In this document: positions 4,338-22,567 of the stretch, one piece after another
How the letters are laid out: each line of letters begins with the position of its first letter
How positions within the stretch are numbered: the first letter of the stretch is position 1
Source: Sphingobacteriales bacterium
GTDB taxonomy: Bacteria > Bacteroidota > Bacteroidia > Chitinophagales > Chitinophagaceae
Assembly: GCA_003963365.1 (NCBI GenBank)
Contig: RXJG01000004.1
Location: 1,184,554-1,248,553, forward strand
Direction of reading: 5' to 3'
Length of the DNA: 64,000 bases
Notes under the pieces: model-generated
What the model saw: only the letters and a program-made list of their open reading frames with translations
The model's database searches: none
Told to the model about the DNA's origin: nothing
Program-made: the position numbers and the translations under genes

Positions 4338-7300
4338 ATGAGAATGAAATTATACATTTCATTATTGTTGTTTAATATCCTGCTATTTGAAAACAGCGTG
4401 TTAGCACAGGTATGTGCAGGCGTGGATGTGACTTATATTACATATGAATCCAGGTGTTCTGCTACCGGAGCTATAAAAATTACCACAAGCGGCGGTTCAG
4501 GAAATTTCAGCTATAAAGTTACAGGCCCTGTTACCACACCCTTTACATCATCCGATTCAATAACGGGTTTACCTGCGGGTAACTATTCAATTTCTGTAAA
4601 AGATAATATTACAGCCTGTACTTCCATTATCACCAATGCTGTGGTAAAAGGTGATTATGCAGACCCAAGATTTTTATTAAGCGGAACGGATGTAACCTGT
4701 ATTCATGGATCGAATGGTACCATCAATGCGATTGACCTGCAATTTGGCCGTGGGCCTTACCTGTATACAATTATTACTCCTTCTGCCAGCCATGTGGGAG
4801 ATACCAGTTCAACAGGTACATTTAATAATCTTTCAGCCGGCGATTATTTAATTCAATTAAGTGATTCCTGCGGAGGTTTGCAGACAAGGTCCATTACGTT
4901 GCTGGATTATAACTGGTGGATTAGTTCTTATACTGCCGATAAACCCGGCTGTAGTTTATTAAATGTAAACATTAATCTCTCAGATAATAAAGGTAATACC
5001 AATGCCTCCGGTATAACTTTCAATGGTTTCTTATATGGCGTAACCACCAGAGCAGGAGATACAACATGGTACAATACAAAATCTTTTACTGATTCTACCG
5101 GTAATGCTAAACAGGCAGATATTGTGGTGAAAGATAAGTGTGGTAATGTGCAAAAAGTAAGTTGGCGTAATACCAATAAACCAACTGTGGATAATGTGGT
5201 GTTGCAGGTTATTACGGGCTGTAACAAGGTAACGGCATCCATTACAGGACAAACAAATTTATCCAATCCATCTTATTGTTTATACGATAAAACAGGTTCA
5301 TTAGTCGTTTGTAATACAACCGGGTCTTTTACAGGTCTTACCTATGGTTCTTATTGCATCAAAATTCAAAGCAGCTGTTATGATACACTGATAGAACGTT
5401 GTTTTACTGTCAGCCCGGTAATTCCTGGTGGTGGTATAGTTACTTACAGCAATATTGTTTGTAATAGTTTTACTGCCTCTGTAACCGGTGGACAAAATTT
5501 AACGAATGCACAGTATTGTTTGTTTGACTCGCAATCAAACCTGCTGGGTTGTAATAATACTGGTATATTTAATAACCTTGCTTTCGGCAGCTATTGTATT
5601 AATATAACAGATGGATGTTATGATACTACTATTGTCAGGTGTTTTAGTTTTAAACATCCTGCACCGGTAATGGGTACTATTACTACTACGAACTTAGGCT
5701 GTGCAGGTTTTTCACTGAAAATTATGGGTTCTGCTAATACGCAATACCCTCAATATTGTTTATACAACGGTACAGGAACTTTAATTAGCTGTAATAATAC
5801 CGGCCTTTTTGATGCATTACCTTATGGTGATTATTGCATTCATTTAAAAGATAGTTGTGCAGACACAACCATTATTCAATGTATTACTGTAGCCAGGCCA
5901 GTTCCTGTTGTGGGCAATATAAATACAATAGCTGTGGGATGTAATAATTTTTCTGCCAGGGTTCAGGGAATCCAGAACTTTTTTAATCCCCGGTTTTGTT
6001 TGTATGATTCATTGGGAACATTAATTACCTGTAATAACACCGGGGTATTTGATTCACTCACTGCCGGTTCTTATTGTATTCGTGTTAAAGACAGTTGTAC
6101 CGATACGACCATTATTAAATGTTTTTCACTAATTCAACCCAAACCAACTATTGGTGATATTCAAACGTTGTCGATAGGCTGTGCCGGTTTTAATGCCACC
6201 GTACAGGATATTCAAAATTTCTTTAATCCTCAATTTTGTTTATTCGATTCATCAGGAGTATTAATTATTTGTAATAAAACCGGCGTGTTTGATTCTGTGG
6301 CATACGGAAATTATTGTTTACATGTAACGGATAGTTGTACCGGGTCAGTAGTAGTAAAATGTTTTACTGTAACCCGTCCTCAACCATCAGTTGGTTCTGT
6401 TCAAACTGTAGCAAAAGGCTGTGCTGGTTTTTCCGCCACTCTAACGGGGGTACAGAATATTTTCAAACCGCAATTCTGCCTGTACGATACTACAGGAGCA
6501 TTAATTAGTTGCAATAATAGAGGTGTATTTGATTCTTTAACCTATGGTTCATATTGTATACAGGTAAAAGACAGTTGCAGTGATACCACGATTATTAAAT
6601 GCTTTAGCTTTAACCGCCCCGCCCCATCAGTAGGAACCGTAAGTACAATAGCACATGGCTGTTCAGGATTTTCAGCAACAGTGCAGGATATTAAAAACCT
6701 GTATAACCCGCAGTTTTGTTTATACAACGATTCCGGTATATTACTCAGGTGCAACAATACGGGTGTTTTTGATTCGCTTGCTTATGGATCATATTGTATC
6801 CACATCAGTGATAGTTGTTTTTCTTCAACGCTAACCCGTTGTTTTTCGATGACACAAACAGCACCTTCTATAAATGGGTCCGTTAAAATCAGTAATAAAA
6901 CATGCTCAACTTTTACTGCATCATTACAGGGCCAGGGGCAAAATCTTAATACTCCGCTTTATTGTTTATATGCAGATACAGTTATGCTCCGTTGTAACAG
7001 TACAGGTGTGTTTGATTCGTTAGCTTTTGGTTCGTATTGTATTTACGTAAAGGATGGTTGTTACGATACTACTATCATTAAATGTTTTACTGCCAGTCCA
7101 TCGGTGGTAAATATTTCTGTAAATGCCGAAGCTTCCTGTACAACCGGTAAAACAAATTTATTAGTCAGTTTTACATCCGGCGCTATTTCCTCTCCTTACA
7201 AAGTTTATGTGTATGACCCTGCAGGAAACCTGGTGGCATCCAGCAGCAGCAGCAGAACTTCTATTACAATCTATGACCTGCCAGCTTTAGATAGCGGTAA

Positions 7301-8723
7301 TAAATATATGGTAATAGGCGAGAATTTCTGTGGAGGAAGAGATACCGTTTTGGTCAAACCAACTGTAAGTTATTTTACCAGAGCGGTTTCTATTAAGGGA
7401 AGATGCCCGGGTTCAACTTTCCCGGATGGTTCATCTGACATCATCATTACAGTAACCAGTAATTTAAACAGACCCGTTCCGAAAATTATAAACAAAGATG
7501 GTATAAGCACCAGTATTTTATACACCACTCATACCAGAGGAACTGTCTCTGATACATTTAATTTCCTGCAACTGGCCCCGGCTACTTATATATTTGCTAC
7601 CAGTAACAATGATTGCGGACTGATAGGATATGATACGGTAGTTGTTAGTCGGTATGCTTATCCCACATTACAAAAATCAGCCGCTTACCAGTGTGATAAT
7701 AATGCGTTTAGTGTAGGCACCTCCGTTACAGGAGGGGTATCACCCATGATGTATGAAATTATACAAAGTACACCGGCCACACCTTCTATCGTATCTGCCA
7801 AACAAAACAGTCCTGTCTTTACCATCAATAATGGAACAATTTATTCGCTGGTGCGTTTAAGGGTAACTGATGCCTGTGGTAATGCATCGTTAAATGATGC
7901 CAGTGTTTTGCCCTTAGCGGTAATGACGGTGGATGTATCATTAGATTGTATGTATAGTACAAGTATACTGTCGGTGGATTCATCAATAGCAAATGCTACT
8001 TACAGTTGGTATAGAAAAACAAGTGCAACAGATAGTGTGCTTATTGGTACCGCACCTTCTTATGTTTTAGATAGTGTAATGCCATCTGATACCGGGCAAT
8101 ATGTTTGCCGGGTATCTGTAAACCAGGGTTGTTTAACCAGACTTGCCTATTACAATCTCACAGGGGCATGCCTTGTTGTTTTACCGGGTATGCCGGAAAT
8201 TAAATTATCCGGGGCAATTCAGGATAAATATACCGGCCTCAGCTGGAAAGTAAAAAACGGGCAGGAGGTGGTAAAATTTATAGTTGAGAGAAGCGAAACT
8301 ATAAATGGAAACTTCCAGTTGATTGGAGAAATAAAAGCAGGTGCTGTTTTGCAGCAGCAATATCAATTTAATACTTCATTATTTAATAGCGACAGTTATT
8401 ACCGTGTAAAAGCCATTATGAATAATGGAAGGATATTTTACAGTAATGTAATAAAGCTTCGTGGGACTGATATACCCGTTCAGGTGTATCCTAACCCTGT
8501 TACCAGTGAATTTGTGATACGGATTAATGATAACAAAACACAGTTATACAGTGTGGATATTTACGATATGTTTGGAAAGTTGATCAGCCATTCGATGCAT
8601 TCTGTAACCGGTGGAATAATTAGATTCAGGAGATTGCCGGCAATGGAGCCAGGCGCATATATGCTCAATTTAACAAATCAGGAAACACATCAAAGAATCA
8701 ATACCGTACTTATATTTAAATAA
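4338..8723 (+). CDS. Secreted cysteine-rich repeat protein with type IX secretion sorting domain
   Basis: A 1461-aa exported protein. A signal peptide (residues about 1-24, ending VLAQ) is followed by SprB-like repeat segments (GGSGNFSYKVTGP..LPAGNYSISVKD, and a second copy to about residue 200). Eight tandem repeats of 80 aa follow (about 290-925), each with six cysteines. Next come three or four less regular beta-sandwich stretches, an Ig-like segment (YSWYRKT..SDTGQYVCRV, about 1215-1270) and a C-terminal sorting domain (last 80 aa: VYPNPVTSEFVIRI, VDIYDMFGKLI, GAYMLNL). The domain order predicts outer-membrane passage by the type IX system and surface attachment or release, with adhesion or gliding as likely roles. 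Forty-eight regularly spaced cysteines suggest a disulfide-braced rod. It is monocistronic, with its own promoter. Confidence 0.9.
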   Translation: MRMKLYISLLLFNILLFENSVLAQVCAGVDVTYITYESRCSATGAIKITTSGGSGNFSYKVTGPVTTPFTSSDSITGLPAGNYSISVKDNITACTSIITNAVVKGDYADPRFLLSGTDVTCIHGSNGTINAIDLQFGRGPYLYTIITPSASHVGDTSSTGTFNNLSAGDYLIQLSDSCGGLQTRSITLLDYNWWISSYTADKPGCSLLNVNINLSDNKGNTNASGITFNGFLYGVTTRAGDTTWYNTKSFTDSTGNAKQADIVVKDKCGNVQKVSWRNTNKPTVDNVVLQVITGCNKVTASITGQTNLSNPSYCLYDKTGSLVVCNTTGSFTGLTYGSYCIKIQSSCYDTLIERCFTVSPVIPGGGIVTYSNIVCNSFTASVTGGQNLTNAQYCLFDSQSNLLGCNNTGIFNNLAFGSYCINITDGCYDTTIVRCFSFKHPAPVMGTITTTNLGCAGFSLKIMGSANTQYPQYCLYNGTGTLISCNNTGLFDALPYGDYCIHLKDSCADTTIIQCITVARPVPVVGNINTIAVGCNNFSARVQGIQNFFNPRFCLYDSLGTLITCNNTGVFDSLTAGSYCIRVKDSCTDTTIIKCFSLIQPKPTIGDIQTLSIGCAGFNATVQDIQNFFNPQFCLFDSSGVLIICNKTGVFDSVAYGNYCLHVTDSCTGSVVVKCFTVTRPQPSVGSVQTVAKGCAGFSATLTGVQNIFKPQFCLYDTTGALISCNNRGVFDSLTYGSYCIQVKDSCSDTTIIKCFSFNRPAPSVGTVSTIAHGCSGFSATVQDIKNLYNPQFCLYNDSGILLRCNNTGVFDSLAYGSYCIHISDSCFSSTLTRCFSMTQTAPSINGSVKISNKTCSTFTASLQGQGQNLNTPLYCLYADTVMLRCNSTGVFDSLAFGSYCIYVKDGCYDTTIIKCFTASPSVVNISVNAEASCTTGKTNLLVSFTSGAISSPYKVYVYDPAGNLVASSSSSRTSITIYDLPALDSGNKYMVIGENFCGGRDTVLVKPTVSYFTRAVSIKGRCPGSTFPDGSSDIIITVTSNLNRPVPKIINKDGISTSILYTTHTRGTVSDTFNFLQLAPATYIFATSNNDCGLIGYDTVVVSRYAYPTLQKSAAYQCDNNAFSVGTSVTGGVSPMMYEIIQSTPATPSIVSAKQNSPVFTINNGTIYSLVRLRVTDACGNASLNDASVLPLAVMTVDVSLDCMYSTSILSVDSSIANATYSWYRKTSATDSVLIGTAPSYVLDSVMPSDTGQYVCRVSVNQGCLTRLAYYNLTGACLVVLPGMPEIKLSGAIQDKYTGLSWKVKNGQEVVKFIVERSETINGNFQLIGEIKAGAVLQQQYQFNTSLFNSDSYYRVKAIMNNGRIFYSNVIKLRGTDIPVQVYPNPVTSEFVIRINDNKTQLYSVDIYDMFGKLISHSMHSVTGGIIRFRRLPAMEPGAYMLNLTNQETHQRINTVLIFK
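5220..7140 (+). repeat. Eight in-frame 240-bp repeats inside the T9SS repeat protein
   Basis: The first cysteine codon of each unit falls at 5220, 5460, 5700, 5940, 6180, 6420, 6660 and 6903, so the spacing is exactly 240 bp six times and then 243. Each unit follows the pattern GC.GFSA..Q...NPQFCLYD, LI.CNNTGVFDSL.YGSYCI, VKDSC.DTTIIKCF. Units 4-7 are most alike. Each contains six cysteines (C, FCL, CNN, YCI, SC, KCF). Synonymous differences show that the units are not very recent copies. Confidence 0.95.
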
Positions 8724-11362: not shown

Positions 11363-13267
11363 TTAATTCGCCGGCACTTTTATCAGCAACGGTTCATTCA
11401 ATATAGTGGTTACATCTTTGTAAAAATCTTTCAGGTCGTTATAATCTTCGGATTTCACCATTGATACCGTTCTTACAAACTCTATTCGAATGTTTACAAC
11501 CTGGTCTTTAATTGAGTAAATACGGGAACATCGCATGGTTAGTGCCTGGTCTGTGATGGATATATTATTTGGGGGGTTATCAATACCTGCATTTGGTGGT
11601 AATTTTAAATTTAGTTCCAGTATAATATGATCTGGATAACCAAAATTTATATTAGATACTCTTTTTGGCTTGATAAACGGGTTTGATTCAAGATTAGTGA
11701 AGAGGTTGTAATTAAAAAGGTAAAACCCGCCATTAAGTTCATATTTATTTTTTAGCCGGGCACTTATTTTCAGCGGTAACGTATCATCATCCAGGTTCTC
11801 GGTTTTAAATGAATCTATTTCAAAAGTATATGTGTCAGCATTGAAAAATTTCTTTTTAAAATCGTCTATATTTTTCCTGATGCGGTAACTGCGTCTTTGT
11901 TTGGCGTATTCAGTACTTGTTATGTTTGCCGTTCCTTCAAAATTTCCTTCATTGTTAATGCTCCCGTTAATTACAATGTTACTGTTATAAGATTTAGCTG
12001 TACTTGCTATTGTGATAAACTGATATTTTTTAAGATCGAGTAAGAAAGCTTTGGTGTTTAAATATTCATAGGGAACGAGGTCAACACTACCGTATTCTTC
12101 GGTAGCATCCAGTATAAACTGGCGATTATCTGTAATAGCAAAAGCAATCAATTTATTAAACTGATCAAGGTAAGGAAAAGTAGTATCCAGCTTGCCATAC
12201 GTCCGCTCAGCTAATAACAGGGGATAAACTTCTATGTTTTCATCTTTAAGCAGGTTAATGAGTATTAAATTCAATTCGGCAGTATTCCCTTTTTTATCTT
12301 CCCAGGCATCTGAAAGTTCTTGTGCCGGGAGGATTCCGTCTCTGCCATTCCACACCATATTTTGTTTAATGTATTTATAAATGATTCTTATCTTTTGTTC
12401 TTTATCATCTACATGATTAAGTAAACTCCTCAGTTCACGCATATGGTGCAGGTTTTTTTTCATTTGTCTTTTTAGCTCGAGGTCACGAAGAAAAAGTTTA
12501 GTCAGTTCACCCCATGATGTAAAACTTTTCTTTCCGTTTTTAGCAACCTGGAAAACTACCCTTTGGAGATAATCTTTGGGCGAATCCATGTAAGGTTCTA
12601 TTTTGAGCGATGGGATATTCTTCATTTCAAAATAGGAGCCTGTGTCGGGTATAAACTTTGAAGTAACTTTATAATCAGCATCTTTATAAATACTGTATGA
12701 TATCTCCATTCCTATAGGTGGACTGAGGATAAAGCTGCTGAAGAGAGTGGGCACGGAAGTTTGAAAAGACCAGTCTTCAAGGTAATACATGCTTCTTAAT
12801 TCTTCAATGTATTCAATCTCAATAATGCTGCCCACTTTTACCTGTGGCATGGCAAATTTTACAGTTGTTGTTCCACCCGTTCTTTGTTGAAAGATGAGAG
12901 AATCTTCAAGTGGAATAATAGCTTTTGATGAATCCGGGTCGTTGTTAAATGTAATGGCATGTATCGTATCAATCCCGTAAAACCCGGATTTGGAATGAAA
13001 GTCAAGTGAAATATCTCCGTATTTGATACCAGGTTTAGTTAGAATTTTTATTCTGGTCCGGTGTGTAACATAGTCATTATATCTGTAATGAAAGGCCCAG
13101 GCGTTGTCACGTAAAACAACTGCATCTGCATCTGGTTCAAATGGGCAGGATTTTAATTCAATTTCTTCCTTACTGAATTTGCCAAAGTCATTAGGTAATG
13201 TAAAAATTTGGGCTGATGACAAAATGACTATTGCCAGACTTATTAAGGTTAAAATTACTTTTTTCAT
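11363..13267 (-). CDS. DUF3857/transglutaminase-fold protein lacking catalytic Cys and His
   Basis: A 634-aa exported protein (signal peptide MKKVILTLISLAIVILSSAQ). An N-terminal DUF3857 domain (about 30-250) precedes a transglutaminase-like core (about 280-400) and a DUF3858-like C-terminal beta domain. Aligned with the neighbouring paralogue (Cys326, His369), the equivalent residues here are Thr329 (in KKGNTAELN) and Lys372 (in DQFNKLIAF); the 43-residue spacing is preserved. The third-residue motif LDAT remains. It is therefore a pseudoenzyme by sequence. It is the last gene of a four-member run read from 17707 towards 11363, with short gaps. Such proteins are common in Bacteroidota and mostly uncharacterised; a binding or envelope role is inferred. 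Confidence 0.85.
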   Translation of the reverse strand: MKKVILTLISLAIVILSSAQIFTLPNDFGKFSKEEIELKSCPFEPDADAVVLRDNAWAFHYRYNDYVTHRTRIKILTKPGIKYGDISLDFHSKSGFYGIDTIHAITFNNDPDSSKAIIPLEDSLIFQQRTGGTTTVKFAMPQVKVGSIIEIEYIEELRSMYYLEDWSFQTSVPTLFSSFILSPPIGMEISYSIYKDADYKVTSKFIPDTGSYFEMKNIPSLKIEPYMDSPKDYLQRVVFQVAKNGKKSFTSWGELTKLFLRDLELKRQMKKNLHHMRELRSLLNHVDDKEQKIRIIYKYIKQNMVWNGRDGILPAQELSDAWEDKKGNTAELNLILINLLKDENIEVYPLLLAERTYGKLDTTFPYLDQFNKLIAFAITDNRQFILDATEEYGSVDLVPYEYLNTKAFLLDLKKYQFITIASTAKSYNSNIVINGSINNEGNFEGTANITSTEYAKQRRSYRIRKNIDDFKKKFFNADTYTFEIDSFKTENLDDDTLPLKISARLKNKYELNGGFYLFNYNLFTNLESNPFIKPKRVSNINFGYPDHIILELNLKLPPNAGIDNPPNNISITDQALTMRCSRIYSIKDQVVNIRIEFVRTVSMVKSEDYNDLKDFYKDVTTILNEPLLIKVPAN

Positions 13268-13290
13268 ATATCAATCAAGTCTCAGGTTTA

Positions 13291-13767
13291 TCATTTTTTT
13301 ATAACTATCCGTTGCGCCTCGTCTTTCATTACTTCATCAAAAAATTTTTTTAAAGAGGTGTATTTTGCAGCAGGTATTTTTAATTGCGTCAGTTCAAGTT
13401 TTGCAGCACAGTAAACAGCATTTTGTGCAGTGTTGTACCAGAAATTCCCGGAATAACTGCCATACTCAAAAGACAGATTTTTGTTTTTCGGCAAAGCTTC
13501 AATAGTATATCCTTCTGGTAGTTGGTAAACAGTAGTGTCTGTTTTAATAAACGGGTAACGAAAATAATAGTCCAGCCGGCGCATTTCAGCTTTTGGCAAT
13601 TTATTAGTCCATAGCTTGTAAAGGCGTGGGGCTAAAAACATTTTATTTCCGGCAATAAATTCAGGTACTCTTGTGAACGACATCTTCATATTGCTAATTA
13701 CCTTTTGGCTGTTATCTTCCTTTTCTATGGAAAAATCATCAGGCTGTTTAAATGCATAGACCTCCAT
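13291..13767 (-). CDS. C-terminal (DUF3858-like) part of a split DUF3857 protein
   Basis: A 158-aa frame starting MEVYAFKQPDD. It corresponds to the last quarter of the neighbouring 634- and 635-aa proteins (PRLYKLWTNKLPKAEMRRLDYYFRYPF, PEGYTIEALPKNK, LKKFFDEVMKDEAQRIVIKK at the end). Its ATG overlaps the stop codon of the preceding gene (TAATG). In its own frame, coding-like sequence (NNQKDYL) continues upstream of the ATG into the preceding gene, which indicates that both halves were once one frame. Either the protein is now made as two chains by coupled translation, a -1 slip joins them, or the split is a recent mutation or assembly error. Confidence 0.75.
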   Translation of the reverse strand: MEVYAFKQPDDFSIEKEDNSQKVISNMKMSFTRVPEFIAGNKMFLAPRLYKLWTNKLPKAEMRRLDYYFRYPFIKTDTTVYQLPEGYTIEALPKNKNLSFEYGSYSGNFWYNTAQNAVYCAAKLELTQLKIPAAKYTSLKKFFDEVMKDEAQRIVIKK

Positions 13768-15185
13768 TAAATAATCTTTCTGATTATTTTCTTTTCATCA
13801 AAAAGATTATTAACGGCAGCCTGTTTATAACTCCCGGATAATTTAAATGATATTTCAGCGGCACCTGTTCCGTCTGTCTCTATTTTTATAATTGACAATG
13901 CGTTTAACTGGTTAGCAGATGACTTGCTCACGGGAGTCGGTACCAGTTTTCCTCCATCTTCGGTAATTAATAAAGCATTTTTGTTTTCGGTGAACGAACC
14001 TAATACATTAAAATCAGCAGTGTTGCTTGTACATTCAAGCCAGATAGAGTCTTTTGTCTGCGGAATGCATAATATTACATGGTCAAATTCATTACAGGGG
14101 AAATCGGCATCTACAGGTTCACTGTCATATTCGGCGTTAATAAGGGCTACATAACTCTTTACACCAACAGCTTTAAGAGCAGCTTTCATATAATTACTCA
14201 GTCCTTTACAATCACCATATTTTTTTTGATCAGTAAAGCTGGCAGCAAACGGTTTTAACCCGCCAATTCCTAATTGAATACTTACATATCTGAAATTTTT
14301 CTGCAAGTAATTATAAATTATTTTAGCCTTGTCTGTGTCTGTTTTTACATCTTTAACCAGGTCCATAAAAAAAGCTTTTCTGTCTGCAGGTAATTCATCC
14401 AGGTCTTTATAAAGGTTGGCAATCCATTCTCCAAATTTTTTCCAGCTAGTTAGTTCTCCGGGATTACCGTAATAGCTGAATTTATTTGGCGCAAGATGAA
14501 TAGATGGATAACGGCTTCTGATTTGAACAGAACCTTCTTCATACTCCAGCGGTTTTAAGTTACTTGCACTCCATTGATATATTTTATAAGCACCATCTTC
14601 CGTTACCAAAGGTGTCAGTTTAATGTTTTTTTCTTTATACCTTATGTCAAGACTTTTTAAAACTTTTACAGTAAAACTGGATTTTACTACGGCTTCGTGT
14701 GAGAACATGATATCGTAGGCTGGCAAAAAGTCTGTTCTTTTAAATTTTATTTCATAATTCAACTCAACAGTAACGGGATACTTTGATGCGGCTATCCTGT
14801 AATAAATAATATATCCATCTTCAATAAGCCCATCACCCGTTGCCCGGGTAATCATATCCTTTTTTTTGAATTTGTCCTTTTGTTTTCCATTTGCATCGTA
14901 CACTTTTATCTCGGCATCTTCAAGATTTACCTGTTTACTGGTGTATTGAACAAAATCAAGAGCATCTTTTCCCTGTTCATTTAAAACAGTAAAAATCTGA
15001 TGAACCTTATAGCTGGAACGGTCAATTTCACTAATCTCCAGCTGTATGGTTTCTTCCTGCATTAAAATGTTTGCATTTTTTATTAATGCTGTATCATTCA
15101 GGTTTTGCAGTAAACCGGGTATGTCTTGTGCTGCCAAACTATGTACAACCGCTGCAAAAAATATGATAAAGAAGTTTTTTTTCAT
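13767..15185 (-). CDS. DUF3857/transglutaminase-like protein, N-terminal 472 aa of a split gene
   Basis: A signal peptide (MKKNFFIIFFAAVVHSLAAQ), a DUF3857 domain (about 45-240) and a transglutaminase core with an apparently intact triad: Cys326 in KKYGDCKGLS, His369 in EFDHVILC, and an acidic residue in WLECTSNT. It ends abruptly at DEKKIIRKII. Adding one A to the A-run at about 13795-13805 would restore a continuous frame into the following 158-aa frame, giving a 631-aa protein, the same size as its neighbours (634 and 635). It is the only paralogue in the cluster that keeps the catalytic residues. The upstream gene ends 4 bases before its ATG, so it sits in an operon. Confidence 0.8.
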   Translation of the reverse strand: MKKNFFIIFFAAVVHSLAAQDIPGLLQNLNDTALIKNANILMQEETIQLEISEIDRSSYKVHQIFTVLNEQGKDALDFVQYTSKQVNLEDAEIKVYDANGKQKDKFKKKDMITRATGDGLIEDGYIIYYRIAASKYPVTVELNYEIKFKRTDFLPAYDIMFSHEAVVKSSFTVKVLKSLDIRYKEKNIKLTPLVTEDGAYKIYQWSASNLKPLEYEEGSVQIRSRYPSIHLAPNKFSYYGNPGELTSWKKFGEWIANLYKDLDELPADRKAFFMDLVKDVKTDTDKAKIIYNYLQKNFRYVSIQLGIGGLKPFAASFTDQKKYGDCKGLSNYMKAALKAVGVKSYVALINAEYDSEPVDADFPCNEFDHVILCIPQTKDSIWLECTSNTADFNVLGSFTENKNALLITEDGGKLVPTPVSKSSANQLNALSIIKIETDGTGAAEISFKLSGSYKQAAVNNLFDEKKIIRKII

Positions 15186-15189
15186 GTTA

Positions 15190-17097
15190 TTATTTTTTCT
15201 TCAGTACAATTTGTTCAGTAAGCAGGTTAAACAGGCGATGGTAATATTCTTTAAGGGTGGCATACTCGCTTACCGGATAAAAACCCTGCGTTATTTCAAA
15301 GCTGCCCTTAATCATTATTTGATTATTTTCTTTGTCTGCAAATACTTCTCTTATAAAATTAATGTTGCTCCCTTCGTTACTGAGTTTAATGGATTGGGGA
15401 AGTTCATTAATGGCGAAGTTTTCGTCAATTGTCAGGTGTATATGAAAATTGATGAGCTGACGGTAACCGAAATTTACATTGCTGAATCGATTATCATTGG
15501 TAAAAGGATTTTCAGTTAGTCCAGTAAAAATATTGTAAGGCAGAAAATAGTAATCGCCACTGTTTGAGGCAGCAAGATTAAAGTTACCTGTTACTTTAAA
15601 TGCTTTTCTTTCATCCGAGTCAGATTTTGCTTTAAGGTTTTCTGTTGTAAGACCCGGTACATTACCGGTAATTTCTTTTTCATAAGATGATGCGGAGGAG
15701 TTTACGAATTTGGCTTCTTCATATGCCCGGGCATAATCAAAGTTATCAATGATAAATTCTCCTTTTACGAGTCCACCGGCGTCCATAATGGCATTTAAAG
15801 TCATTTGCTGTTTGTATGAAGTATTAGTATCAGCAATACTTACCAGTTCACCTTTTTTCTTTCTAACAATAAAACCGGTTGTATTTAAAATAGAGTAGGG
15901 AATAAGATAGGGCGGGGTATATTTATCTGTAGCATCAAGATAGTACCTTTTGTTATTAATGGTAACTACTGCATAGCAGGTGTTGAACTGATCGATAAAA
16001 GGGTTATTGGGATTTACATTTCCATGTTGTCTTTCACTTACTAATATGGGTTCAGCATCCAGGTCTGCTGCTTTAAGCAGGTTAACAAGTAAGAGATTGA
16101 TATCTGCATCACTTCCGGTTTTTTTATCCCATGCATGCTTAATACCATCAGGTGAATATTTTGAGGTAAAATGATTCCAACTCATTTGTTTTCGTACAAA
16201 ATTGTAAACAGCTTCCATTTTTTCAAATTCATTACCCAATCCCTTTACCTGTGTAATAAATTCACTGGTTCCCGGAATATCCTTTTTCAGCTGAAGATAA
16301 AAGTCCTGTGCTGTTGCCATTACATTATTAAGCTGGTCCCATGTGTTCATATAACTGATAGTATTCCTGTACTTGGATAATTGAAATACTACTTTTTGAA
16401 CATAGTCTTCTCTTGAATCCATAAAGGGTTCTTCTGACAATCCGGGTATATTTACCATTTCAAAGCTTATTTTTCCATTACTATTATCTGGCTTTACATT
16501 AATGTGCATACCCGGAGTTTTTTGCACTACCCATGAAAATTCTGTGTTTGGTACTATTGTAAGATCATAATGGCTTTTTTCTACAGGAATCTTTTCCTGG
16601 AATACCCATTCTTTTAAACCACCATAATTTTTCATTAAACTTTTATAACTGTATTCCAAAACAGATCCAATTTTTATCTCAGGGAATGTGAAACTGTATT
16701 CGCCCCAATATTTATTTGTGTTTTTCTGAAATACAGATTTCTTGTCAAGATCAGTGTAACCAAAGCCATTATAAATGCGGCCTTTTATATCAGAAATATT
16801 TTCAAAATCATCTTCCCGGTAATATGGTATCGTAATTTCTCCGGCACCTTTTCCTTTTTCCCTGAGTATTTTAATCCGGACATAATGATAGGTTATCATA
16901 TTGTAATCATCATCATAATAAGTCATAGCTTCATGGTCTAATACTATAGCCGTAGCCTCCTTGTCATAAGCACATTCTTTCAAATTTATTTCGTACGTGG
17001 ATGGGGAATGAAAATTTCCAAAATCTTCTGGTTGGGAAAAGCTATTAAAATTGTTACAAAGTAGAATTGTGCAGATAATTGATAATGGTCTTAACAT
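15190..17097 (-). CDS. DUF3857/transglutaminase-fold protein lacking catalytic Cys and His
   Basis: A 635-aa exported paralogue (signal peptide ending FNSFSQ) with the same domain order as the 11363-13267 product. At the catalytic positions it has Asp330 (KKTGSDADIN) and Thr373 (DQFNTCYAVV) instead of Cys and His, while LDATDKY is retained. N-terminal landmarks are FHSPSTYEINLKECAYDKEATAIVL and HYVRIKILREKGKG. The C-terminus (YATLKEYYHRLFNLLTEQIVLKK) matches that of the short paralogue upstream. Its start lies 10 bases from the end of that gene. The sequence predicts a periplasmic or membrane-associated, non-catalytic protein. Confidence 0.85.
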   Translation of the reverse strand: MLRPLSIICTILLCNNFNSFSQPEDFGNFHSPSTYEINLKECAYDKEATAIVLDHEAMTYYDDDYNMITYHYVRIKILREKGKGAGEITIPYYREDDFENISDIKGRIYNGFGYTDLDKKSVFQKNTNKYWGEYSFTFPEIKIGSVLEYSYKSLMKNYGGLKEWVFQEKIPVEKSHYDLTIVPNTEFSWVVQKTPGMHINVKPDNSNGKISFEMVNIPGLSEEPFMDSREDYVQKVVFQLSKYRNTISYMNTWDQLNNVMATAQDFYLQLKKDIPGTSEFITQVKGLGNEFEKMEAVYNFVRKQMSWNHFTSKYSPDGIKHAWDKKTGSDADINLLLVNLLKAADLDAEPILVSERQHGNVNPNNPFIDQFNTCYAVVTINNKRYYLDATDKYTPPYLIPYSILNTTGFIVRKKKGELVSIADTNTSYKQQMTLNAIMDAGGLVKGEFIIDNFDYARAYEEAKFVNSSASSYEKEITGNVPGLTTENLKAKSDSDERKAFKVTGNFNLAASNSGDYYFLPYNIFTGLTENPFTNDNRFSNVNFGYRQLINFHIHLTIDENFAINELPQSIKLSNEGSNINFIREVFADKENNQIMIKGSFEITQGFYPVSEYATLKEYYHRLFNLLTEQIVLKKK

Positions 17098-17107
17098 GAT
17101 TTTCGCT

Positions 17108-17707
17108 TTAATCAGAGTTTAGATTCTTTTTAATTACTATTTGCTCATTTAAAAAAGTAAAAAGCTGTTTATAAAATTCGTGAAATTCAGGATAGTTGCT
17201 TACGGAATATACAGGCTTTTTAAATTCCAGTACCATCTTAATATTAACAGTGTTTATGTCCCCGGCAATTCCGGCAACACATGAAAAAACAAGTTCAGCC
17301 TTTCGTTTGTTCAGCCTTTTACTGTATACAAATTTTTTGTCTACTTTACTGGTAATAATTTTTCCTGAAAGATCTATATTATAAGTTTGGGCAGTAAAGT
17401 TTTTAATATTTTCATTAGGTAACCAATAAGGAATGTGTATGTCAGCGTATTTAAGCCCCGACTGGTTTAATATTTTTATCCTGGCATGGCGTTCAGTTTG
17501 CGCAAAAAACGATGAAGATGATATTGAACAAAACGTTTCCTCCAGGTCAAATAATACCAGTGCATCGGCATTTTTATCGAATGCACATTCTGTCAGTTGA
17601 AGTTCGCTTTTATCAACATTTCCAAAAGAGGGAATATCTTTGCTTTTTTGTGCGGATGCAGTAAGGCATAACAGTATACCACTGATAAGATACACGAAAG
17701 GTCTCAT
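17108..17707 (-). CDS. Miniature DUF3857 paralogue with the transglutaminase core deleted
   Basis: A 199-aa exported protein. Residues 1 to about 130 match the N-terminus of the 635-aa neighbour (signal peptide; FGNVDKSELQLTECAFDKNADALVL; RHARIKILNQSGLKYADIHIPY; KKFVYSKRLNK). Residues from about 145 match its extreme C-terminus (VNIKMVLEFKKPVYSV, then EFHEFYKQLFTFLNEQIVIKK). The roughly 430 residues in between, which hold the rest of DUF3857, the whole transglutaminase core and most of DUF3858, are missing without a frame break. It is probably a fixed internal deletion that is still expressed, as the first gene of the cluster. It might act as a decoy or dimer partner of the full-length forms (inference). 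Confidence 0.8.
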   Translation of the reverse strand: MRPFVYLISGILLCLTASAQKSKDIPSFGNVDKSELQLTECAFDKNADALVLFDLEETFCSISSSSFFAQTERHARIKILNQSGLKYADIHIPYWLPNENIKNFTAQTYNIDLSGKIITSKVDKKFVYSKRLNKRKAELVFSCVAGIAGDINTVNIKMVLEFKKPVYSVSNYPEFHEFYKQLFTFLNEQIVIKKNLNSD

Positions 17708-20705: not shown

Positions 20706-21962
20706 TTACAATGCTTTGGCAACACTTAACAAATCATTGTATGCCCGGTCAATAAAAGGGTGGGGAATGGGTGTATCCGGGCGGGTTGTTTTTAAAAAAA
20801 CGGTAAACATACCCAGCCTTCTGCCAAATTCCATATCGCTTAGCGTATTGCCAATCATTATTGATTTAGAAAAATTGATGGCAGGAAAATCCTTTTGTGC
20901 CCGTAAGCCCATACCTGTGTTTGGCTTTCTGTCGGCACTGGTCTCTTCAAGGTCGGTACAAAAGTAAACGGAATCAATACGACCACCCTCGGCTTCAATG
21001 GCTGCTGTCATTTGGTGATTGATGTTTAACAATGCTTCCAGTGTCATCCATCCTTTTCCCACACCTTTTTGATTGGTAACAATTACTATGTGCTTAAACT
21101 TCGAATTGAATAGTTTCAAAGCTTCCGGCACTCCGTCATAAAATTTAAACTCATCCCAGCTGCGGATATAATCCATATGTTTTTCATGATTAATTACGCC
21201 ATCACGATCAAGAAACAAAGTCCAGCTTTGATCTATGGGAGGGAATGGTTTTGGAAAGTTCATAATATGCGGTAACTCTGTTTGGGCCCTTTCATAATCT
21301 TCGGGAATGCCGATGTCAATGAAATACTGGCTTTGTATTACGCCGTAAAATTTTTGCTCACTGAAATATGTTTCGAGATAATCTTTTTCAAAAGAAAATT
21401 TAACCGGTAATGGTTTGTTCAGAAAACTTTCAACATTCAATACATAAACTCCTCCGTTAATCAACCCTGATTCATAGAATTGTTTTTCTTTAAAATTACC
21501 AATGCTGTTGTTCTCATTTAACTCAACCACTCCATAACGGTCAAAGTTTTTCATGGGCTTTAATACCAGGGTACAATCTGCATGAGTTGCCGTATGCGCA
21601 GCTGATAATTCTTCAACATTTATATTGAAGAGGGTATCACCATTCACAATCAGTACATTTTTTTCTGTAGCTTTTTCACAAGCCTGCTTAATGGCGCCAC
21701 CGGTACCTAAAGGTTCCGTTTCTATGGATAATTGATAAGGGAGAGTGGATAATTCTTTTTTCAGCCATTCTTCAATGATTTCGCTTTTATAACCTGTGGC
21801 GAAGATGAATTTATTGATACCCTGTTTAGTTAACTGTTCAATTACATAATGAAGAAATGGTTTGCCGGCTACCGGTGCCATGCATTTGGGTAAATCAGAA
21901 ACAACCGAACGCAATCTTGTACCTAATCCTCCGGCCAGTATAATTGCTTCTTTCACTGTCAT
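20706..21962 (-). CDS. Fused heptose-1-phosphate guanylyltransferase / heptose-1,7-bisphosphate 7-phosphatase (HddC-GmhB)
   Basis: 418 aa from the ATG at 21962 (an upstream in-frame start inside gmhA is less likely). Residues 1-235 are a sugar nucleotidyltransferase (EAIILAGGLGTRLRSVVSDLPKCMAPVAGKPF; EPLGTGGAIKQA; VNGDTLF). Residues about 245-418 are a HAD phosphatase of GmhB type (FLDRDGVINHE with nucleophile Asp252 and Asp254; VTNQKGVGKG; DRKPNTGM; IGNTLSDMEFG). The pair would remove the 7-phosphate and then add GMP to the 1-phosphate, the last two steps to GDP-D-glycero-D-manno-heptose. The zinc-loop cysteines of classic GmhB are absent (CTDLEETSADRKP keeps one Cys). Neighbours gmhA and hddA encode the other steps. 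Confidence 0.88.
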   Translation of the reverse strand: MTVKEAIILAGGLGTRLRSVVSDLPKCMAPVAGKPFLHYVIEQLTKQGINKFIFATGYKSEIIEEWLKKELSTLPYQLSIETEPLGTGGAIKQACEKATEKNVLIVNGDTLFNINVEELSAAHTATHADCTLVLKPMKNFDRYGVVELNENNSIGNFKEKQFYESGLINGGVYVLNVESFLNKPLPVKFSFEKDYLETYFSEQKFYGVIQSQYFIDIGIPEDYERAQTELPHIMNFPKPFPPIDQSWTLFLDRDGVINHEKHMDYIRSWDEFKFYDGVPEALKLFNSKFKHIVIVTNQKGVGKGWMTLEALLNINHQMTAAIEAEGGRIDSVYFCTDLEETSADRKPNTGMGLRAQKDFPAINFSKSIMIGNTLSDMEFGRRLGMFTVFLKTTRPDTPIPHPFIDRAYNDLLSVAKAL

Positions 21963-21977
21963 AAATAAATAAGAAAG

Positions 21978-21989
21978 CCCCTTTAGGGG
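21978..21989 (-). repeat. GC-rich hairpin (CCCCTTTAGGGG) overlapping the gmhA stop codon
   Basis: The inverted repeat CCCC-TTTA-GGGG, followed by TTTGGGGT on the + strand, lies over the 3' end of gmhA; the stop codon (21985-21983) is in the loop. The last residues of GmhA (TPNP) are therefore encoded by the element. Similar hairpins recur between genes in some Bacteroidota (recollection, not checked). It may be a dispersed repeat or an attenuating structure before hddC-gmhB. Confidence 0.55.
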
Positions 21990-22567
21990 TTTGGGGTAAA
22001 ATATTTTTCTTCCACTAACTGGCAAATAATATGTCCCAGCAGGATATGCGATTCCTGTATTCTTGGTGTATCGTTAGATGGAACATTGATTAAATAATCG
22101 CTTATGGTTTTCATTTTGCCGCCACTTTCGCCAGTAAAGCCGATAGTAGTTATACCTTTTTCTCTGGCCACTTCAAAAGCTGCAGTTATATTTTTTGAAT
22201 TACCTGAAGTGGATAGGCCAATCAATACATCACCTTTATTACCGATACCTTTTACAAGACGGGAATAAATTACATCATAACTATAATCATTCGCTACTGC
22301 TGTGAGGTATGAAGTATTGCAATGCAAAGCTTCAGCAGGTAACGCATCCCTGTCAGTATAAAAACGTCCGCTGAATTCTGCTGCTAAATGTTGGGCATCT
22401 GCTGCACTGCCGCCGTTGCCGCAAAACAAAACTTTATTACCGTTTTTAAAAGCAGTAACAATTAAGTCAACGCAATCGCCAACCGTTTTTATAATTTTTT
22501 CATCAGCTAATACTTTTTGCTTGGTATCGATAGAAGCGCTGATGATGGATTTTATTTTGTCGTTCAT
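21983..22567 (-). CDS. gmhA: Sedoheptulose-7-phosphate isomerase (GmhA)
   Basis: A 194-aa SIS-domain protein of normal GmhA length. Landmarks are the phosphosugar-binding FCGNGGSAADAQHLAAEFSGRF (CGNGGSAADAQH is nearly invariant in GmhA), LSTSGNSKNI, IGFTGESGG and the C-terminal PRIQESHILLGHIICQLVE containing the catalytic-site Glu/His. It makes D-glycero-D-manno-heptose 7-phosphate from sedoheptulose 7-phosphate in the cytoplasm. A heptad tract separates it from hddA upstream. It is followed on the same strand by the fused HddC-GmhB gene, only 20 bases away. Confidence 0.93.
   Translation of the reverse strand: MNDKIKSIISASIDTKQKVLADEKIIKTVGDCVDLIVTAFKNGNKVLFCGNGGSAADAQHLAAEFSGRFYTDRDALPAEALHCNTSYLTAVANDYSYDVIYSRLVKGIGNKGDVLIGLSTSGNSKNITAAFEVAREKGITTIGFTGESGGKMKTISDYLINVPSNDTPRIQESHILLGHIICQLVEEKYFTPNP

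Follow-up and report, generated by a model that had tools for sequence, protein, structure and literature searches.

The window, by which we mean the whole 64,000-nucleotide stretch of DNA analysed here, carries on its minus strand a cluster of DUF3857 genes, the features of which are, in order of transcription:

17108 to 17707, minus strand: 199-aa pseudoenzyme remnant, in which the signal peptide and the first part of the DUF3857 domain run in frame into the final ~45 residues, with no transglutaminase core between them.
15190 to 17097, minus strand: pseudoenzyme A, 635 aa, secreted; Cys replaced by Asp330 and His by Thr373, with the third triad position retained as Asp388.
13767 to 15185, minus strand: catalytic copy, N-terminal 472 aa, with signal peptide, DUF3857 domain and a transglutaminase core containing GDCK (Cys326), His369 and Glu384 (ECT).
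13780 to 13795, minus strand: site at which, by DNA alignment, a one-base difference disrupts the frame of the catalytic gene; the exact base is not resolvable.
13291 to 13767, minus strand: catalytic copy, C-terminal 158 aa as a separate ORF with a TAATG overlap and without signal peptide.
11363 to 13267, minus strand: pseudoenzyme B, 634 aa, secreted; Cys replaced by Thr329 and His by Lys372; a diverged copy of type Ia.

The initial annotation had described four consecutive genes of shared DUF3857/transglutaminase/DUF3858 architecture. Three such genes are present, but one of them is split (472 + 158 aa) and the 199-aa ORF is what remains of a fourth after a deletion. The DUF3857 domain (PF12969) passes the Pfam cut-off of 24.6 bits in all three large ORFs (31.7, 72.0 and 43.8 bits) and stays below it in the remnant (16.6 bits). 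Transglut_core (PF01841) exceeds its cut-off of 23 bits in the 472-aa Cys-containing copy only, scoring 22.2 bits in the 635-aa copy with no match reported for the 634-aa copy, and DUF3858 (PF12970) is below the Pfam cut-off in every copy; no NCBIfam family was matched. Profile alignment confirmed the residue correspondence that had been proposed, Cys326 and His369 of the 472-aa ORF aligning with Asp330 and Thr373 of the 635-aa copy and with Thr329 and Lys372 of the 634-aa copy, at a spacing of 43 residues in all three. Thus a putative triad of the Cys-His-Asp/Asn type, with Glu in the third place, is present only in the 472-aa ORF and is incomplete in the 635- and 634-aa copies. Pseudoenzyme A is 69% identical to its same-genus orthologue (dN 0.20, dS saturated), and no close orthologue of pseudoenzyme B was found among the same-genus genomes. 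The source genome contains three further tandem DUF3857 loci, as do most of its relatives.

The catalytic gene is a single 636-aa frame in the same-genus genome G001. The 472-aa ORF is 69% identical to the first part of that protein and the 158-aa ORF is 63% identical to its residues 473–630; the two ORFs belong to one protein, of which the shorter is the C-terminal part. When the DNA is aligned with two relatives in which the gene is a single frame, a one-base difference appears at the break; it may be either a real mutation or an assembly error. The start of the 158-aa ORF sits inside the stop of the 472-aa ORF (TAATG), and re-initiation at this point is conceivable. The 158-aa fragment starts MEVYAFKQPDDF and has no signal peptide, so it would remain cytoplasmic while the 472-aa part is exported. 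A programmed frameshift rescuing the split gene was rejected, as the DNA at the break has no long slippery stretch and the relatives have one frame; a conserved two-polypeptide form was rejected because the gene is whole in the relatives and its C-terminal piece here has no signal peptide. The 199-aa remnant matches the 646-aa pseudoenzyme of G001 over residues 1–153 (72% identity) and 582–645 (59%), about 430 residues having been deleted in frame. With its catalytic gene frame-disrupted and its fourth gene a deletion remnant, the window cluster may be impaired, and the unit may be inactive in this genome, barring an assembly error at the break.

A rival account of the locus would be that the cluster is decaying, with a frameshifted enzyme, a deletion remnant, two leftover pseudoenzymes and no working unit. 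The frame break and the internal deletion both speak for this, as does the inability of the 158-aa fragment to join an exported 472-aa part. A second same-genus genome (G002) adds to it: at L049:8729-10069 the frame of a type-Ib enzyme stops after the transglutaminase core and a piece of the C-terminal domain remains in another frame, making it the second enzyme of the genus to be damaged in this domain. On the other side stand dN/dS values of 0.07–0.17 for pseudoenzyme A, the remnant and the 158-aa piece (dS being mostly saturated), which imply that the decay, if any, is recent, and the chance that the break is an assembly error. We regard decay as a serious possibility for this one cluster, if a somewhat doubtful one.

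To place the cluster among its relatives, DUF3857 loci were collected in three samplings: 41 relatives' genomes (27 with DUF3857), 80 GTDB loci found by a search with a type-I enzyme, and 60 genomes taken phylum-wide (21 with DUF3857), a few loci occurring in two samplings (for example L113 = L046 and L159 = L055). A cluster was counted where at least two full-length DUF3857 genes lay on one strand; the types Ia, Ib, II and III are the subgroups of the tree described below. Exactly one Cys-type copy, together with one to four Cys-less copies, was found in 128 of the 130 tandem clusters, so that linked active and inactive paralogues are kept over species. The two exceptions are L108, in which enzyme and partner occur twice in a row, and L173, where a Cys-less pair lies beside a complete unit; nowhere in the 130 clusters do two catalytic copies directly adjoin. 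Between neighbouring genes the median gap is 7 nt, with overlap in 23% of cases. When labels were shuffled 100,000 times over runs laid out approximately as in the relatives' set, no draw was as regular as the observed arrangement. Gene order depends on the type, the pseudoenzyme coming first in type-I units and the enzyme first in types II and III. Additional Cys-less copies occur at 21 loci besides that of pseudoenzyme B, and two enzyme copies in one locus only. Two of the type-I units, L108 (CAJCIQ010000215.1, titled Beijerinckiaceae) and L157 (titled Thalassobius), are on contigs named as alphaproteobacterial MAGs; both group with Chitinophagaceae-type sequences, which makes misbinned contigs likely.

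Units that depart from the rule were also followed up. Among the GTDB type-I loci, the enzyme is preceded on its own strand by a Cys-less copy in 79 of 80, mostly directly upstream (six of them partial; in L133 the copy lies 2.6 kb upstream of the enzyme), and at the one orphan type-I enzyme, L141, tblastn found no hidden pseudoenzyme remnant nearby. Orphan pseudoenzymes have to be sought in the relatives' set, which is informative about them where the GTDB set, gathered by enzyme, is not: about 6 of 53 there are orphans for reasons other than contig ends (L074, L081, L082, L089, L092 and L095), and the lone Cys-less copy of G003:C30 (L092) is the only DUF3857 match of its genome.

The active sites of the two kinds of protein differ consistently. 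The Cys, His and Glu of the site are invariant in 53 related type-I enzymes; the third triad member is Glu in type I and Asp in types II and III. Across 62 aligned partners, Ser, Val, Ala, Ile, Asn, Thr, Asp or Leu stands where the enzymes have the nucleophile Cys, and Lys, Arg, Tyr or Thr where they have the catalytic His. The surroundings are conserved: Gly328 and Asn334 in 62/62, Glu/Asp332 in 60/62 and the triad Asp (Asp388) in 57/62, giving a degenerate-site motif G..[ED][IV]N, or in full G-[NST]-x-x-[ED]-[IV]-N. A site with conserved residues of its own is under selection for something else and is not drifting. The possibility that other Cys or His residues fill the active site, which the initial annotation had named as its refuting outcome, was checked in the transglutaminase core of the 62 aligned pseudoenzymes and rejected, no conserved Cys or His column being found (the best is position 358, His in 28/62). 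In some pseudoenzymes of other families in the phylum (L185, L190 and L191) the His and Asp are kept, so the universal loss is that of the Cys.

These data bear on the idea that the Cys-less copies retain another chemistry in a rearranged active site. The conserved Asn334, Glu/Asp332 and Asp388 lie in or beside the former site and some copies keep the His, but the nucleophile position has no preference for a reactive residue and no new Cys or His is conserved, making this very improbable. Other cysteines are present in both lineages: type-I enzymes have a second Cys, invariant and directly following the triad Glu (ECT), and a further one in 46/53 (positions 374 and 386 in L098), and the partners have a conserved Cys at position 42 of the N-terminal domain, near the mature N-terminus (49/62). 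These cysteines may serve in disulfide formation or redox control. A TPR-fused DUF3857 protein (L089:6184-9741) has Ser for Cys with His and Asp retained, an independent nucleophile loss in a solo lineage.

The age of the Cys loss was examined in trees. Of the 53 Cys-less sequences among the 103 proteins of one tree, 51 fall together and divide into subgroups Ia, Ib, II and III that mirror the enzyme subgroups partner by partner. A second tree, sampled over the whole phylum, contains a fourth pair type, with [AG]DCKDY in the enzymes and GDxxD, with Ala or Val for Cys, in the partners; most solo enzymes fall outside the paired enzymes. A separate, recent Cys loss in each pair type would place enzyme and partner in one clade, and AU tests reject this for type II (p = 2e-11) and type III (p = 4e-4); the loss is therefore older than the divergence between types II and III. 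Tested in this way, the type-I pair gave p = 0.15 on 26 rows and p = 0.036 on 67; a single-origin tree is only weakly favoured there. The Cys loss is perhaps older than all of the pair types, the long branches making the deepest part of the tree uncertain. Repeated duplication has given type Ia as many as four pseudoenzymes for one enzyme, the enzyme itself remaining single, and the position adjoining the enzyme is taken by different pseudoenzyme lineages. The initial annotation had read two copies of the cluster as having lost the catalytic pair while keeping fold and length; by the trees, those losses did not arise in the window cluster and belong to a Cys-less lineage that is old and phylum-wide.

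The retention of the fold was addressed with AlphaFold models of a relative's enzyme (L098, pLDDT 91) and of pseudoenzyme A from the window (pLDDT 93). The two models have closely matching secondary structure and a common predicted fold, in keeping with what had been proposed for the cluster. In Foldseek, both have 3kd4, with which they share a three-domain fold, as top match (E = 9.5e-31 for the enzyme, 7.4e-30 for pseudoenzyme A), with weaker matches to M1 aminopeptidases and to the Ost1/ribophorin I subunit of oligosaccharyltransferase; a direct PDB sequence search with the 472-aa protein alone gave no match. The entry 3kd4 is BDI_1141 of Parabacteroides distasonis, a 'putative protease', and is the closest solved structure to enzyme and pseudoenzyme models alike. 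It differs in being about 130 residues shorter and in reading YGTP where the enzymes read YGDC (HMMER alignment), so the only solved member of the family itself seems to be a pseudoenzyme lacking the nucleophile, and its label needs caution. A search of 148 genomes with the 3kd4 core piece returned three weak matches only. The solo DUF3857-transglutaminase proteins (with DUF2569, or TPR-fused and about 1250 aa) have the same core with GDCK, His and Asp/Glu; unlike the paired enzymes, they are nearly always single catalytic genes and fall outside the paired-enzyme clade. Nearly all pseudoenzymes have signal peptides ending A|Q, with A21 and Q22 each in at least 90% of aligned partners, in agreement with the Q-rule for proteins exported by Bacteroidota (PMC10653852).

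The gene neighbours outside the units have no telling function. The flanks of types Ia and Ib resemble housekeeping synteny, and a constant extra neighbour is found in type II only: a secreted TPR/MORN_2-repeat protein of ~1100 aa, which precedes the pair in all five visible loci (L041:11009-14305, C3 of the window's own genome, and L063, L064, L066 and L067), its gene overlapping or nearly touching that of the enzyme. It is possibly a third component of type II pairs. Elsewhere in the window, the plus strand at 4338–8723 encodes a 1461-aa secreted protein with a sorting tail for type IX secretion (Por_Secre_tail) and many ~75-residue repeats in which a CLY/CLF motif occurs. On the minus strand, 20706–22567 encodes a fusion of a nucleotidyltransferase with a HAD-type phosphatase, overlapping a sugar-phosphate-isomerase-like ORF; the region resembles an activated-heptose pathway in which two steps have become fused.

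It is probable, in our judgement, that the cluster belongs to a class of exported Bacteroidota enzyme/pseudoenzyme units whose products form a periplasmic, two-component transglutaminase-like enzyme with a non-catalytic partner. The arrangement is conserved across the phylum, the two lineages have a common fold, the triad is intact in one and absent from the other, the trees of the two lineages mirror each other and signal peptides are present; the retention of one active copy with a dead partner argues that the dead copies are probably working partners and not decaying duplicates. An exported enzyme of two subunits is the simplest account, and gene order, the single enzyme copy, the matched lineages and the conserved non-catalytic groove all fit it. 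Each unit would supply one enzyme of the DUF3857-transglutaminase fold, its triad being Cys-His-Glu or Cys-His-Asp, together with at least one presumably co-transcribed paralogue of the same fold without the nucleophile. The two products would meet in the periplasm and assemble as a heteromer; the Cys-less subunit would be required for activity, or would hold the substrate in its degenerate groove, and the Cys subunit would cleave or transamidate a protein or peptidoglycan amide. The initial proposal of a catalytic subunit with non-catalytic partners is thereby borne out as a genomic rule (128/130 clusters, 7-nt median gap and mirrored lineages), but at this locus the enzyme gene is frame-disrupted. 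Counting against the two-component reading are the orphan pseudoenzymes, the orphan enzyme L141, the weak type-I tree, the uninformative neighbours and the damaged window cluster.

The orphans speak for a rival reading, in which the Cys-less copies bind a peptide, glycan or peptidoglycan on their own and stay next to the enzyme merely through tandem duplication. One orphan indeed belongs to a genome without any enzyme copy, and there are known cases of transglutaminase-fold proteins that lack activity and act as binders or scaffolds (PMC10318531). The strict one-enzyme rule despite an old divergence, the near-zero gaps and the matched subclades over four pair types would all be unexpected for independent binders, however, and we consider this explanation unlikely. 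Quite unlikely, too, is a partner that restrains the enzyme, as an inhibitor, chaperone or zymogen-like cap, instead of activating it or setting its specificity. Same-fold partners can inhibit, and the leading position of the pseudoenzyme gene in the type-I operon would suit a restraint made ahead of its target; in types II and III, however, the enzyme gene leads, and inhibition alone poorly explains the extra pseudoenzyme copies per enzyme. Under the two-component reading, several pseudoenzyme copies for a single enzyme suggest interchangeable specificity subunits. A broader proposal, which we put forward tentatively, is that these are modular enzymes exported throughout the phylum, each with one catalytic subunit and interchangeable Cys-less subunits that set the substrate, the old split between the two having been inherited through at least four pair types.

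There are precedents for both the arrangement and the proposed roles. In the M16B metallopeptidases, comprising the alpha/beta subunits of the mitochondrial processing peptidase and bacterial two-gene operons, the inactive subunit is essential and binds the substrate (PMC11266112). As in the DUF3857 units, tandem paralogous genes encode one catalytic protein and one without the catalytic residues; M16B enzymes differ in being zinc metallopeptidases of unrelated fold and chemistry, and their heteromer is proven whereas for DUF3857 we infer it. The trypanosomatid prozymes of AdoMetDC (PMC5201418) and deoxyhypusine synthase (PMC3663545) likewise pair a catalytically dead paralogue with an active one, which the dead paralogue has been shown experimentally to activate; such activation, proven for the prozymes, is here a postulate, and unlike the DUF3857 units the prozymes are eukaryotic, unlinked single cases in unrelated enzymes. 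In the full-text collection searched, a single paper names DUF3857, as a lolA neighbour in Xanthomonas, and no paper names DUF3858; no two-component role for the family was found there. Enzyme–pseudoenzyme pairing is thus known in principle and is met here in a family of no known function. DUF3857 proteins are common in Bacteroidota, and their Cys-less copies, read singly, look like broken duplicates; seen under the one-enzyme rule, they become a two-component system that can be put to the test. The rule also provides a first functional lead for the family and offers many natural pairs in which to study the co-evolution of pseudoenzyme and enzyme.
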